DNA from: an uncultured Pseudomonadales bacterium
Lineage (GTDB): Bacteria; Pseudomonadota; Gammaproteobacteria; Pseudomonadales; Azotimanducaceae
Direction: 5' to 3'
NCBI GenBank assembly: GCA_951813515.1
Contig: OX638346.1
Span: 3,031,617-3,095,616 of the forward strand
DNA: 64,000 bases
Shown in pieces: positions 25,075-29,924 of this stretch. Position numbers and translations under genes: made by a program. Under the pieces are notes generated by a model. It was not told the origin of the DNA. It searched no databases and saw nothing but the letters and a program-made list of their open reading frames with translations. The number at the start of each line of letters is the position of its first letter. The stretch's first letter is position 1.

Positions 25075-26133
25075 TTGACTTCTGACACCGACGATATGGT
25101 CCGGATTCCCGGAGGGGAATTTGACATGGGGGCCGCGGGCTTCTACGTCGAGGAGCGTCCTGTGGTTGCCGTCCGGTTGGATGGCTTCTGGATGGACCCC
25201 GCGCCGGTGACTAACAGGGACTTCGCGCGTTTCGTCGAAGCGACGGGCTACGTGACGGTCGCGGAGAGGGACCTGATCGCCGAGGACTATCCCGGTCTCG
25301 ACGAAGCGGATCTTGCGGCGGGGTCGCTTGTGTTCATCCAGACTCGCGGCCCCGTGGACCTGGACAACCCGGGCCGTTGGTGGCGATTCGTCAGGGGTGC
25401 CAACTGGAGAGAAGAGTCGGCCCATGCGGACCATCCCGTCGTGCACGTCGCCTACGAAGATGCGAACGCCTATGCCGACTGGCGCGGCAAATCGCTGCCC
25501 ACGGAAGCGGAGTGGGAATACGCGGCAAAAGGAGGCCTGGACGGGGCAACCTACCCTTGGGGTGACGATTTCCACCCCGGCGGCAAGGCGATGGCGAACA
25601 CCTGGGAGGGTGAGTTCCCGTGGCGCAATACCGCGCGCGACGGCCACACCCGCACCTCCCCCGTGGACACATACCCGCCCAACGGTTACGGCTTGTTCGA
25701 CATGGTGGGCAATGTCTGGGAATGGACGCAGGACTGGTGGAGCGCATCGCATGGGGCTCAGCCCGGGAGCGCGAGGGTGTCCCTCGCAGAAGAAGGCAGC
25801 GCGAGGGTGTCCCTCGCGGAAGAAGGCAGCGCGAGGGGGCACCTATCGCAGGAAGCAACCGATATGCCCTGTTGCGGATCAGTCAACCAACGCGCCGCTG
25901 GCCGCAGCATCGGGCGAACCGTCGTGCGAACCAATCCGCGCGGCGGGCCGGAGGGCGACAGCTTCGATCCATTGCAATCCGAGATAAGGATTCCGCGCAA
26001 GGTTCTCAAGGGGGGCTCGCATCTCTGCGCACCGAGCTACTGCCTGCGCTATCGTCCCGCCGCACGTATCCCGCAGATGATCGATACGGCGACATCGCAC
26101 ATCGGCTTTCGCTGCGTCGTTCGCGACGGCTGA
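25075..26133 (+). CDS. Formylglycine-generating enzyme (FGE/SUMF1 family)
   Basis: The 352-residue protein oxidises the active-site cysteine of sulfatases to formylglycine. Its N-terminus has the family opening MVRIPGGEFDMG, then LPTEAEWEYAAKGGLDGATYPWG and MVGNVWEWTQDWW. Near the C-terminus GGSHLCAPSYCLRYR (Cys318 and Cys323) aligns with the catalytic Cys pair of human FGE (GGSYMCHRSYCYRYR), so this is a true FGE and not a generic SUMF1 protein. No signal peptide is seen. The frame starts at TTG 25075, and ATG 25096 is the alternative. An in-frame 30-base tandem repeat (25768-25827) lies after WEWTQDWW. Four Cys-type sulfatases are encoded at 38.9-51.4 kb. Confidence 0.9.
   Translation: MTSDTDDMVRIPGGEFDMGAAGFYVEERPVVAVRLDGFWMDPAPVTNRDFARFVEATGYVTVAERDLIAEDYPGLDEADLAAGSLVFIQTRGPVDLDNPGRWWRFVRGANWREESAHADHPVVHVAYEDANAYADWRGKSLPTEAEWEYAAKGGLDGATYPWGDDFHPGGKAMANTWEGEFPWRNTARDGHTRTSPVDTYPPNGYGLFDMVGNVWEWTQDWWSASHGAQPGSARVSLAEEGSARVSLAEEGSARGHLSQEATDMPCCGSVNQRAAGRSIGRTVVRTNPRGGPEGDSFDPLQSEIRIPRKVLKGGSHLCAPSYCLRYRPAARIPQMIDTATSHIGFRCVVRDG
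25768..25827. repeat. In-frame tandem repeat inside the FGE gene
   Basis: Two 30-base units start at 25768 and 25798 and differ at one base. A third, diverged unit starts at 25828. Each of the first two contains the perfect inverted repeat GCGAGGG-TGT-CCCTCGC and encodes SARVSLAEEG in frame. The units sit in a loop region between the WEWTQDWW motif and the catalytic Cys motif. Confidence 0.85.
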
Positions 26134-26220
26134 TGTTGCCGGCAACGCCGTTGTTCACGCCTTTCAGGTGATGCTCGTGCACACCTTCCTATTGCTTGGA
26201 CACATCGATCACGCAGATGG

Positions 26221-28848
26221 CTATCTTCCGGCCCGTTTCTGTTGTGAGGGTCGCGACGAAGCGTTGTCTAGCGTTTGAAGCACCTGCTCAACATTGGCAT
26301 GGCGGAAATTTGCCTCCCGGCCAACCGCTCGCTGCCTGGTCTGCGCGCTCCGAATTCTTTCTCGCCAAGGACTCAACGATTCGGTTGCAGCGAGGACTTC
26401 CAGAGCTTCCGATGCTTCGGTCGACGCAATCGCCGAGAGTCTTCCTATAAGAAGTTCCACCAGCTCGGCTATCTCCATCTTCTCGGTGGCGATGAGTGCG
26501 CCAACTCCGGTCATGGGGCTCGAGGGCCTGTACGAACGCCCCAAAGATCGGATCAGGAGATCAAGTTCGGGCACATTCCACTTTCCAATCCACACTGCAT
26601 TGCCGTCGGAAGCAAGGTGCGAGGCGACGTGACGGACCCGTCTTTCGCCCCCTCCTGAGATCTCATTCTGCAATCGACTGGTGAACGCCGCCGGCTCCAC
26701 CAGCAATCCGGTGCAGCACCAGCAAATGCGTTGCGCCACGTCCATGCTTCGGATTGCCATTTTCCGATTGATGAATTGAACAAGTTCCTCCGCGGGACAA
26801 TGCCGAATCGCCGCCCGGAGCATGTGCTTCAGCGCGGGAAGTTGTCTCGACGTGGCACGTGGGGGGAATGATCGAAGTAACTGTAGTATCGCCAATGCGG
26901 CCACGGCAGCGTGTTGGTCATCGGCAAGTTCGGACAGTGTCGGGTGATCCACAATTTTCCGAGTCCAGCTTTGCCGAACCGTTCGGACGAGGATGTCCGC
27001 AACCAGGTCGGGTCGCTGCGACACGATTGAGGCGTACCACTCGATCTTCCCCGCCGGACGCAACCTGTTGAAATGGATGGTGAGCGCAAGGCGCATCTGT
27101 CTTTCGTCGAGTTCTGCGGGATCGAGTTCTTCCAGCCCAGCCATGAAAGGACAACTCAGATAGTGCACCTCGCCCTTTGATGCGAGCCGGACAATCTCGG
27201 ACTCTTCGGGCAGGTCGCTGCGAACGGTTGTTGAGCGAAAGGCCGCAATGACCGTGTCAACGAGTTCCCCGTCGCCTTCCAGCAGGTTCAGCAGTCGGCT
27301 TCCTGGCGTGTCGCCCTCGGCGTCGATGTAGTCGCCGAAGTACGCGGTAGCCAGGTGATGGAGAAGTGCAGGCGGCGCCCGGTTCTCCCGCAGGAAGGGC
27401 GCCTGGGACGCAACATGGTTGTGCCAGGCTTCTCGACGCTGCCGTTCCCCGGCATCGTATTCTCGGCTTGGTTCGACGGTTGTAGCCACCCTTTGTTCTC
27501 GAACCTGTAAGTCGTCTCCTGCCCGTTCCCCAAGCGCCGGGCGTTCGACCAGTCGCGCATTGAGGAACTTATTGCCAACTTCTTCCGAATCAAACCAGTG
27601 TCGTGCCGGGACCGACAGGAACTCCTCGATAGAAATGCCATCGCGTCCAACGAGCAGCGACCGTTCGGGGTTGAAACGCTTCGCGAACTGCCCTCGACCA
27701 CTGAGATTGATGCCGCGTCCGTTGCTCTTTACTTCGATTGACACCAGTCTCCGTCCTCGCTCGAGGACGAAATCCACCTCGTGGTTTCCGCGACGCCAGT
27801 AGTAGAGACGGACTTCGGGCATGCCGGTGTTGTACAGGTGTGCGCCGACGGCGCTCTCTACGAGTCTTCCCCAGAAGGTTCGGTCCGCCTGGGCCTCTTC
27901 GAACGTGTATCCCGAATGCACAGCCATCAATCCGGTGTTCAGTACGTTCAGCTTCGGGCTCGACGCGCGCTGGCGCCGGGCCAGACCTTCGTACTTGGAA
28001 AGTCCCGCCACCAGTCCAGCCCTTTCCAGCAATTGCAGGTAGCGGGCCAACGTCGTCGTATTGCCTGCGTCGTCGAGCTGGCCGACCATCTTGCTATAGG
28101 CAAGAATCTCGCCGGAGAACTCGGCGCTCAGTTCGAACAGCCGCTTGAGTAGCGCGGGTTTGTCGATTCGGTCCATGGCTACGATGTCGCGCTCGATATT
28201 CGGCTCCACCAGCGCGCTCGCCACGTAGTCGCGCCAGCGGGGCTCTTCGTGAATGTACGGGGCAGCGCCCGGGTAGCCACCGAAGTAGACGTACTGCGGA
28301 AAGTCGAAACCGAACGCCGTTGCCATTTCCTGGAAGGACCAGTGCGCGAGCCTGATGGATTCGAAGCGCCCGGCAAGGCTCTCGGTAGTGCCCTTGTGCA
28401 TCAATAGAGGGCTGGAGCCGAGCAGCACGACGTGCAGGGCTCGACGTTCCCGGCGGTCGGCGTCCCACAGTCCTTTGACAGTCTCCGACCAGTTTGGAAT
28501 CTTCTGAATCTCGTCGAATACCAGGACGAAGCCACGTTGTGATCGAGCAGCTTGAATTCGCGCGCGCTCCCAGGCCTGCGCGACCCATCGGGAGTCGCGT
28601 TCACCTGAGAACGTGGCCCGAGTGAAGCTCGAGGGCGCATCGTCCGGCAGGTTTCGAATTCGGGGGAGGGCCAATGACTCCGGTTCATCAACCGGCAGGT
28701 ATAGACTGGGCTGGTCAAGATGCTCGAGGGTTTGGTCGACAAGGGTTGTCTTACCGCACTGCCGGGGCCCCGTGACGAAAGTCAGCCGCTGCGGTGACTC
28801 ATTGAGCCGGTCGAGGAGCGTAGAGACGTGTGCACGCTCGAAACTCAT
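26221..28848 (-). CDS. AAA ATPase/DUF4143 protein with large helical C-terminal extension
   Basis: The first 415 residues or so follow the AAA_14 plus DUF4143 layout. Walker A is GPRQCGKTTL (near residue 27) and Walker B is VLVFDEIQKIP (near 112). A winged-helix-like middle follows, then a PD-(D/E)xK-like segment (NHEVDFVLERGRRLVSIEVK) ending near GRDGISIEEFLSVPARHW. Members normally stop there, at about 400 residues. This one continues for some 450 more, beginning ERQRREAWHNHV and RENRAPPALLHHLATAYFGD, all predicted helical. From memory this tail resembles C-terminal regions of NACHT/STAND proteins, which needs a search. The promoter overlaps a 38-base palindrome directly upstream. Confidence 0.8.
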   Translation of the reverse strand: MSFERAHVSTLLDRLNESPQRLTFVTGPRQCGKTTLVDQTLEHLDQPSLYLPVDEPESLALPRIRNLPDDAPSSFTRATFSGERDSRWVAQAWERARIQAARSQRGFVLVFDEIQKIPNWSETVKGLWDADRRERRALHVVLLGSSPLLMHKGTTESLAGRFESIRLAHWSFQEMATAFGFDFPQYVYFGGYPGAAPYIHEEPRWRDYVASALVEPNIERDIVAMDRIDKPALLKRLFELSAEFSGEILAYSKMVGQLDDAGNTTTLARYLQLLERAGLVAGLSKYEGLARRQRASSPKLNVLNTGLMAVHSGYTFEEAQADRTFWGRLVESAVGAHLYNTGMPEVRLYYWRRGNHEVDFVLERGRRLVSIEVKSNGRGINLSGRGQFAKRFNPERSLLVGRDGISIEEFLSVPARHWFDSEEVGNKFLNARLVERPALGERAGDDLQVREQRVATTVEPSREYDAGERQRREAWHNHVASQAPFLRENRAPPALLHHLATAYFGDYIDAEGDTPGSRLLNLLEGDGELVDTVIAAFRSTTVRSDLPEESEIVRLASKGEVHYLSCPFMAGLEELDPAELDERQMRLALTIHFNRLRPAGKIEWYASIVSQRPDLVADILVRTVRQSWTRKIVDHPTLSELADDQHAAVAALAILQLLRSFPPRATSRQLPALKHMLRAAIRHCPAEELVQFINRKMAIRSMDVAQRICWCCTGLLVEPAAFTSRLQNEISGGGERRVRHVASHLASDGNAVWIGKWNVPELDLLIRSLGRSYRPSSPMTGVGALIATEKMEIAELVELLIGRLSAIASTEASEALEVLAATESLSPWRERIRSAQTRQRAVGREANFRHANVEQVLQTLDNASSRPSQQKRAGR

Positions 28849-28850
28849 CG

Positions 28851-28888
28851 TGTTACATTATTGAGTAAATTAACTCAATAATGTAACA
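28851..28888. promoter_or_regulatory. 38-base near-perfect palindrome, probable operator
   Basis: Two 16-base arms, TGTTACATTATTGAGT and its exact reverse complement, flank AAATTA. The element ends two bases before the start codon of the DUF4143 ATPase gene and overlaps the predicted -10 box. It is AT-rich in a GC-rich neighbourhood. It could bind a dimeric repressor, possibly autoregulatory, or form a hairpin at the mRNA 5' end. Confidence 0.85.
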
Positions 28889-28908
28889 GGTAGCGACGTG
28901 AGATTCAA
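28880..28908 (-). promoter_or_regulatory. Predicted sigma-70 promoter of the DUF4143 ATPase gene
   Basis: On the minus strand TTGAAT (28903-28908) and TACATT (28880-28885) are separated by 17 bases. The -10 box lies in one arm of the palindrome, so a bound protein would block initiation. The transcript would begin inside the palindrome, leaving a leader of about 25 bases. Confidence 0.45.
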
Positions 28909-28931: not shown

Positions 28932-29924
28932 ATGGCGAATGGCAGGGTGATGCTCAAGGTCACGAAAGAAGAAAACGTCAGTGGCGACCGGAAGGCCGCC
29001 AGCCAGGGCTTCGGTCGTGTCAACGCCGGGTTCGCGGTGCATTTCGAGCCGGAAGGGCAGCGGGACGCCGCCTGTGACTATTTCGAGAAGCACGGGTTCG
29101 TTGCTCTGGACAATTGCCTGATTCCGGCGGAGATTGGGCATCTGAACGAGTTCTACGACCGCACGCAACGCGAGCGGCCGGAAGCCTGGGGCCTCTCCGG
29201 CGAAAGGAAGTACTTCCAAAGAAATGCGGGCATCATGTTTTCGCAGCCGCTGCTCGACCATCCGGAACTCGATCCCTACACCCGGCACCCGCGCTCCTAC
29301 CCGGTAGTCGCCCGGATCTTGGGAGGCGAAGAACGCGTCCGCTTCAGCGAGTTCAACTTCCGTGAAACACCGGTCGATGCGGGCAAGGGCGGCATGAATT
29401 TTCATCATGACAAGGCCGCTCCCGATCGTTTCGAACGGCGACCGTACAATCCCTGCGACTGGTTGTGCGCCATTCACTACCTGACCGACGTGGATCCGAC
29501 GACGCCGGCCTTCTGTGTCGTCCCGAACAGCAACCGCTACGTTACGCTCGGGGACGCGTTCGAGGGACTGGGCTCGGATTATCACGAGGTTCCAGTCTAC
29601 GGACGGGCGGGAACCTGCGTGCTGTATGACACCGCGATCTTCCATACTCGGCTGGACGGCGACGGCAGCAAGCGCCGCCGTACCTGGCATCAATACTATG
29701 CGCGCGGGGGCTGGCTCACGAGTTGGCTGCCGGGGGTCGGCAAATACCGACGCCAACCCTCGCCTGTCCTGACCGACTGGAACCTGTTTCCGGAACGCCT
29801 GGCGCTGCATCCGGACCCCGGGAAACGGCTGTTCTTTTCCCACTGGAACACCGCCCAGTGCGAGTGGGTCGCATCCGGATTCGATCCGGAAGTGCGCCGT
29901 TTGACGCCGCGTGGCGAGTATTGA
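28932..29924 (+). CDS. Phytanoyl-CoA dioxygenase (PhyH) family protein, 1
   Basis: The 330-residue protein belongs to the Fe(II)/2-oxoglutarate PhyH family. The iron-binding HxD is visible in MNFHHDKAAPD, the distal His in AIFHTRLDGD, and the 2-oxoglutarate-binding Arg probably in the following KRRRTWHQYYARGG. PhyH enzymes hydroxylate many small molecules, and the substrate is unknown. It is on the plus strand, facing the end of the 17-gene minus-strand block. ATG 28950 is an alternative start. Confidence 0.85.
   Translation: MANGRVMLKVTKEENVSGDRKAASQGFGRVNAGFAVHFEPEGQRDAACDYFEKHGFVALDNCLIPAEIGHLNEFYDRTQRERPEAWGLSGERKYFQRNAGIMFSQPLLDHPELDPYTRHPRSYPVVARILGGEERVRFSEFNFRETPVDAGKGGMNFHHDKAAPDRFERRPYNPCDWLCAIHYLTDVDPTTPAFCVVPNSNRYVTLGDAFEGLGSDYHEVPVYGRAGTCVLYDTAIFHTRLDGDGSKRRRTWHQYYARGGWLTSWLPGVGKYRRQPSPVLTDWNLFPERLALHPDPGKRLFFSHWNTAQCEWVASGFDPEVRRLTPRGEY

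Follow-up and report, generated by a model that had tools for sequence, protein, structure and literature searches.

Type II toxin-antitoxin systems are short operons of overlapping genes whose promoter is covered by a palindromic operator. PDC-S01, in which an ATPase is joined to a PD-(D/E)XK domain, ranks fourth in frequency among prokaryotic defences in the excerpt of PMC12988326 used here, and the same excerpt gives experimental validation as pending for most such defence candidates. In Thermus thermophilus the gene TT_P0211, which has AAA_14/DUF4143 motifs, was up 6.6-fold with plasmid, only in Argonaute cells, according to the excerpted text of PMC4406477; it was not placed in the subfamily described here. 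That paper was the sole one naming DUF4143 in our literature search, in which subscription journals were thinly covered, and neither a DUF4143 operator nor the NACHT protein EruA was the subject of a paper found there; the EruA gene of PMC12839154 is, by the excerpt, an unrelated E. coli regulator and was set aside. In the literature searched we found no earlier description of either the self-carried operator family or the DUF4143-EruA operon reported below.

The window, the whole 64,000-nucleotide stretch of DNA that was analysed, contains a palindrome at the start of a gene whose first part is of the PDC-S01 type. The palindrome is probably an autogenous operator of this gene, to which the gene's own product would bind and thereby repress its expression.

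The palindrome and the gene it precedes

The palindrome at 28851–28888 reads TGTTACATTATTGAGT-AAATTA-ACTCAATAATGTAACA. It has the 16-base arms and the 6-base centre of the original prediction; the arms pair without a mismatch and the centre matches in two of its three pairs, giving 18 of 19 pairs. Its edge lies two bases from the ATG (28848) of the minus-strand gene, as had been stated, and its GC content (8/38, 21%) is low against the approximately 60–65% across the window, which agrees with the description of an AT-rich site in GC-rich surroundings. None of 100 shuffles of the window gave a matching palindrome, dinucleotide shuffling of the start region, done 60 times, never equalled its score (z 11.8), and in the 4.31 Mb genome it is single-copy even if three mismatches are allowed. 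The palindrome is more than a local oddity, since relatives of the gene carry its core upstream of their start. The features of the locus are collected in Table 1.

Table 1. Coordinates of the features at the locus, in window positions
Feature	Position	Strand	Basis
875-aa fused gene (P0001)	26221..28848	-	ORF
Gene 1 module, residues 1-419, AAA_14 + DUF4143, PADLOC PDC-S01 (PDLC04791)	27592..28848	-	Profile matches
Winged helix within the DUF4143 region (residues 231-302), putative operator-binding domain	27943..28158	-	Secondary structure of the model, our reading
Nuclease core of PD-(D/E)XK type (residues 347-374)	27727..27810	-	E357, D359, E372 invariant (56 sequences), K374 nearly so
Gene 2 fragment, EruA-like, about residues 744-1186 of 1368, in-frame fusion, alpha-helical solenoid	26263..27555	-	Profile, alignment, model
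Probable remnant, in another frame, of the far C-terminal end of gene 2	26192..26281	-	E 0.016 and 50% over 30 residues, weak by itself
38-bp AT-rich palindrome, proposed operator	28851..28888	none	18/19 pairs, conserved in relatives
Conserved core of the proposed operator, TGAGT-N6-ACTCA (window: TGAGTTAATTTACTCA)	28862..28877	-	Conserved in relatives
Proposed -10 hexamer TACATT, inside the left arm of the palindrome	28880..28885	-	17 bp from the -35; promoter predicted from sequence
Proposed -35 hexamer TTGAAT	28903..28908	-	Conserved offset in clade I; at least 4/6 to TTGACA in 12/22 loci
Divergent PhyH-family gene, bystander	28932..29924	+	Family match; absent from other family loci

The downstream gene had been called a DUF4143 gene. 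This module is present, but the 875-residue reading frame is a fusion of the DUF4143 module (gene 1) with a fragment of a second gene. The module matches positions 1–394 of the 395 in the PDC-S01 profile PDLC04791 (E 1.1e-159), and Pfam together with an alignment of 56 sequences identifies the combination that defines PDC-S01, an AAA_14 ATPase and a DUF4143 region with PD-(D/E)XK residues; G27, K33, D112, E113, E357, D359 and E372 are invariant among the 56. An AlphaFold2 model of the module, built with the same number of sequences (pLDDT 91.6), runs from the ATPase through three helices and a wing (residues 231–302) to a PD-(D/E)XK-type sheet, the domain names being our reading of the model. 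The best solved matches in Foldseek were the archaeal ATPases Sso1545 and PABY2304 and the DNA-bound Orc1/Cdc6, with MalT at rank 18, and a sequence search of the PDB with the module gave generic ATPase matches only.

On the other side, the ATG of the PhyH gene (28932) is 43 bases beyond the palindrome. The distance given originally was right, but the gene is a bystander: no PhyH relative is present at any other family locus, and the palindrome as a PhyH control site was dropped for this reason. Elsewhere in the window, the plus strand has at 25075–26133 a reading frame with the in-frame repeat SARVSLAEEG, which by motif we take to be formylglycine-enzyme-like.

Conservation of the core and two site architectures

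As relatives we counted homologues of the first 419 residues, that is, of the gene 1 module. Among 398 genomes of the phylum, ten besides the window's own hold a relative, and related sites precede its start. When public genomes were scanned with a nine-sequence alignment, the best 80 loci belonged to many phyla. In the set used to count the core (91 loci, L022–L112, with genes placed by tblastn), TGAGT-N6-ACTCA was found upstream of the gene exactly in 57 and with at most one mismatch in 71, compared with 0 and 12 among 8571 control windows of equal size elsewhere in the same loci. When 245–247 genomes around each of two outliers had been added, the enlarged set of 141 genes had 73 exact cores and 100 with at most one mismatch upstream; inside the gene the numbers were 0 and 1, and after the stop codon no core was present at either level among 137 genes. 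The exact cores come from hosts labelled as at least 15 phyla, so a host-specific regulator is unlikely. The original prediction had named a search before other DUF4143 genes as its check and lack of conservation in relatives as its refutation; across this range of hosts, the conservation is clear.

It might also be possible that the site is the end or the target of a mobile element carrying the gene and not the site of a regulator. Many phyla have the gene unit, which is also present on a few plasmids and one phage-labelled contig, and the window's genome contains many DUF4143 genes; both observations would suit such an element. Yet the core is missing after all 137 genes, there is no matching repeat around the window gene, the spacing between the site and the promoter is fixed, and solo copies of the site are absent from the window's genome. 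We regard this explanation as very improbable, and terminal repeats or transposon ends were dropped as candidates, there being no far-end repeat in the window or after the 137 genes.

Forty-one of the 141 genes are without a core at one mismatch or less, and eight are without any of the half-site types counted; some of the core-less genes have misplaced starts and others have different sites. Upstream of position 4001 in L102 the core is absent and a perfect CCTAATTAATTAATTAGG palindrome precedes the start. Altered half-sites (TGCGT, TTAGT, CTAGT) occur in single lineages (L161, L162, L163, L169, L177, L252 and L254) and provide material for a recognition code. The plasmid- or phage-labelled loci that were inspected have a related site in three of three cases, with changed half-sites in two. 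Ten weak relatives on viral contigs (20–26% identity) were left out of the analysis.

A tree of 88 proteins separates clade I, which includes the window's gene, from clade II with support 100. Clade I comprises 22 rows, and L204, which is outside the tree, was joined to it later by similarity; an automatic label for long palindromes also caught some arrays and was unfit as a clade marker. In clade I the site consists of one palindrome with outer arms, and a half-site with at most one mismatch is absent from the 22-bp register in all 22. Clade II mostly has arrays of three to four half-sites with a 22-bp period, TTACTCA..TGAGTAAAATTACTCA..TGAGTAA.

The arms of the clade I palindromes covary. 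Over 23 sites, the 16 pairs are kept in 86.1% of cells versus 71.8 (sd 1.5) after shuffling, and two-sided changes number 55 versus 21.2 (sd 3.5), a count that none of 500 shuffles reached. Slid registers of the dyad gave 46.5% pairing at most, and a separate swap test found 8.17 of 11 outer pairs versus 5.74 (sd 0.30). At dyad positions 7, 8, 10 and 11 the base varies and the pairing is mostly kept. Such covariation would fit a symmetric protein with a drifting preference, but a hairpin or cruciform would fit as well.

The protein itself offers a hint at recognition. An arginine at the residue equivalent to S252 is found in six of the 141 genes, and in all six GAAC replaces the GAGT half-sites, on two separate branches; two further GAAC loci (L049, L159) lack the arginine. 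With two origins and two counterexamples the cases are too few for significance, and protein-DNA co-evolution at this position was dropped as proof.

Promoter position and the likely regulator

A consensus promoter scan of the region found nothing in the window. The claim that the palindrome covers the -10 box nevertheless holds, because the alignment with relatives puts a -35/-10 pair here with the -10 in the arm. At the single offset of the clade I -35, seven of 22 loci match TTGACA in at least five of six positions, compared with three such matches over 34 other offsets. In 70 array loci, 21 hexamers of this quality lie 16–18 bp before the TAAAWT of the core, and nine other spacers together gave two. 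In the family the core is found on or beside the putative -10 box, and the start codon comes 2 to 80 nucleotides after it. In a Nitrospirota subclade (L197, L198, L201, L205 and L206) the site is shifted approximately 50 bp upstream, before what is by eye a TTGAC/TATATT-like promoter. This shift and the fixed promoter register suggest that the site tracks the promoter instead of the start codon. In L043, L044, L053, L057 and L071 the downstream half-site overlaps the start, and the first codons (ATG AGT AAA or similar) are also operator sequence. What is expected of an autogenous operator, overlap with the gene's own promoter, here one placed from sequence alone, and conservation with the gene, is found in this family.

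The promoter position bears on two further explanations. One is control at the RNA level, in which the transcribed palindrome would form a hairpin over the start codon and set translation or the life of the message. Folding the strand gives -29.4 kcal/mol (z -5.6), the arms covary symmetrically as those of a hairpin would, and the palindrome stops two bases short of the ATG. However, since the predicted -10 is located in the left arm (clade I) or in the core (clade II), the transcript should start within the palindrome and carry its right half only; in addition, the clade II sites are half-site arrays with a 22-bp period and not single hairpins, and the Nitrospirota sites precede the promoter. 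Control by such a hairpin is therefore improbable, and a known RNA family was dropped after an Rfam search gave no match. The other explanation sees the site mainly as a loading or sensing platform for the AAA+ nuclease, comparable to Orc1/Cdc6 on origins, from which the protein would sense invasion or act on DNA, with promoter control being secondary. The resemblance of the fold to DNA-bound Orc1/Cdc6, the clade II arrays and the conserved nuclease residues would agree with a platform, but the tight register with the -35 and -10 does not call for such a role, and we give it little credence.

An operator bound by the gene's own product is the reading that we prefer, and the distribution of the site in the genome points in the same direction. 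In the window's genome the core is found exactly at one site and within two mismatches at three: at the window gene, 57 nucleotides before a further DUF4143 gene (L124; Pfam E 2.6e-11), and elsewhere. The 16-mer TGAGTAAAWTTACTCA, a narrow pattern that misses variants including the window's own core, is present in just two of the 398 phylum genomes: in one it precedes a DUF4143 gene, in the other it falls within a glycosyltransferase-like reading frame. A global regulator of the host with a regulon was dropped on these grounds. Since the site accompanies the gene across phyla and no regulon is seen here, the product of the gene is the likely ligand.

The gene L124 (G000:C1:2353472) had been missed by the family search; besides the near-core before its start, its upstream region carries the direct repeat TTGA[AC]TAAATTTAG. 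With it, the window's genome (G000, 4.3 Mb) has at least 22 DUF4143 genes (21 + L124). At a threshold of 1e-15 it has 19 matches, and among 59 genomes no other has more than four. Among 34 DUF4143 genes of other subfamilies (17 from this genome and 17 from elsewhere), a palindrome at the start beats all 60 shuffles in 14, which is a lower bound because the statistic misses known sites (L136, L141); the background in mechanically called reading frames is 19 of 353, and three of these 19 are DUF4143 genes. One other subfamily has CTTGYAAWT..AWTTRCAAG, often over the start codon, in the window's genome, in other phylum genomes and in one Ignavibacteria contig; eight of its 15 loci pass (0/100 shuffles) and seven fail, and a second search largely returned the same loci. 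Other DUF4143 subfamilies thus appear to have different palindromes at their starts, and a genome with so many of these genes, several with palindromes of their own, is a natural test of how self-regulation is insulated.

The two-gene operon and comparison with described systems

In the window's clade, gene 1 opens a two-gene operon with an EruA-like NACHT gene. Counted over loci with at least 300 nt downstream (one clade I locus and six others were too short), this gene 2 comes directly after gene 1 in all 22 clade I loci versus 0 of 113 others; the query proteins came from three of the 22, and one of the 22 is the window. In most cases it overlaps the gene 1 stop codon. When intact, gene 2 encodes about 1350–1370 residues with, by eye, a P-loop and an end of PD-(D/E)XK-like appearance; in three relatives it matches the EruA model NF058535 over its full length with 972.1, 980.7 and 997.3 bits, just below the NCBIfam cut-off of 1000, so that these proteins are near EruA and by rule outside it. 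A close relative (L034, 3106–6460) has a gene 2 of 1118 residues, apparently without the N-terminal P-loop part, which appears to be a second reduced partner or an assembly error. On plasmids, four of four EruA-like genes inspected, from 28 records, have no DUF4143 neighbour; such NACHT genes are found beside Ppl and Abi genes (L215) and beside a TIR-domain gene (L217).

In the window, gene 2 is a remnant. The fused protein reaches 147.3 bits against the EruA model, below the same cut-off and over model residues 734–1142 only, and its residues 432–862 align to residues 744–1186 of gene 2; the P-loop/NACHT part and most of the nuclease end are lost, and the helical middle is kept. The model of the fragment is an all-helical solenoid (pLDDT 87.9) for which Foldseek gave no match under 0.001, and no other relative of gene 2 was found in the window's genome. 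The divergence of the fragment from its relatives is as expected from gene 1 (-1.9 sd versus the nearest), thus either the loss happened recently or constraint on the fragment persists.

The position at the promoter, the covariation of the arms, the winged helix and the lack of a regulon are consistent with an ATPase that represses itself, and we regard this idea, already put forward in the original prediction, as well supported, although binding and repression are predicted from sequence and model. The AAA+/winged-helix/PD-(D/E)XK protein would bind the palindrome through its winged helix as a symmetric dimer or higher assembly, and since the site covers the -10 and the expected transcription start region, the bound protein would block RNA polymerase. 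Repression would presumably be lifted when invasion draws the protein off or shifts its nucleotide state, so that expression would rise in a burst. What the operator would govern in the window's clade is a defence-type operon of two genes, the DUF4143 ATPase-nuclease and the EruA-like NACHT protein; in the window's genome gene 2 has decayed to the fused helical fragment, with gene 1 and the operator intact. A link to defence is consistent with the PDC-S01 and EruA matches.

A broader version of this proposal is tentative and, taken as a whole, rather unlikely. DUF4143/PDC-S01 proteins would be AAA+ nucleases bound to their own operators, with the complex at the promoter itself acting as the sensor; if an invader titrated or remodelled the bound ATPase, its transcription and, for the window's clade, that of the NACHT nuclease partner would be released, and an operator code for each subfamily would insulate it from the paralogues of the genome. 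If this were true, the fusion in the window would join an operator-bound ATPase to the helical sensor of its partner.

The surroundings, that is, the operator family and the DUF4143-EruA operon, are more interesting than the palindrome itself. A control site that has travelled with an ATPase-nuclease family across phyla suggests that common defence-candidate genes switch themselves off, and a conserved operator carried by the gene is a cheap and direct handle on the binder, the release and the inducing signal of PDC-S01. In addition, the operon joins two defence families that have been catalogued separately.

The closest described relative is the candidate defence family PDC-S01, since residues 1–419 of the window protein match PDLC04791 over its whole length. 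PDCs are described as single-gene systems in the excerpt of PMC12988326, whereas clade I always has the EruA-like gene next to gene 1; moreover, most members of the window's family carry their own operator, and the copy in the window has a remnant joined to it. With EruA, a NACHT antiphage protein, the full-length match of intact gene 2 is shared, and the window retains the part corresponding to 734–1142; the differences are that all three intact proteins fall just short of the cut-off and that the inspected plasmid genes stand without a DUF4143 partner. The arrangement is similar to that of type II toxin-antitoxin systems in the short operon, the overlapping genes and the palindromic operator over the promoter, but gene 1 is a 420-residue ATPase-nuclease and not a small antitoxin. 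Defence loci can also be repressed locally, among others by WYL regulators, which we take to be of the BrxR type. Such loci, with WYL regulators, RptR or CapK/CapS, likewise have a repressor at the defence locus (excerpts of PMC9122601, PMC12255303 and PMC13373217); there the regulator is a separate protein, whereas here the ATPase-nuclease is itself the proposed repressor.
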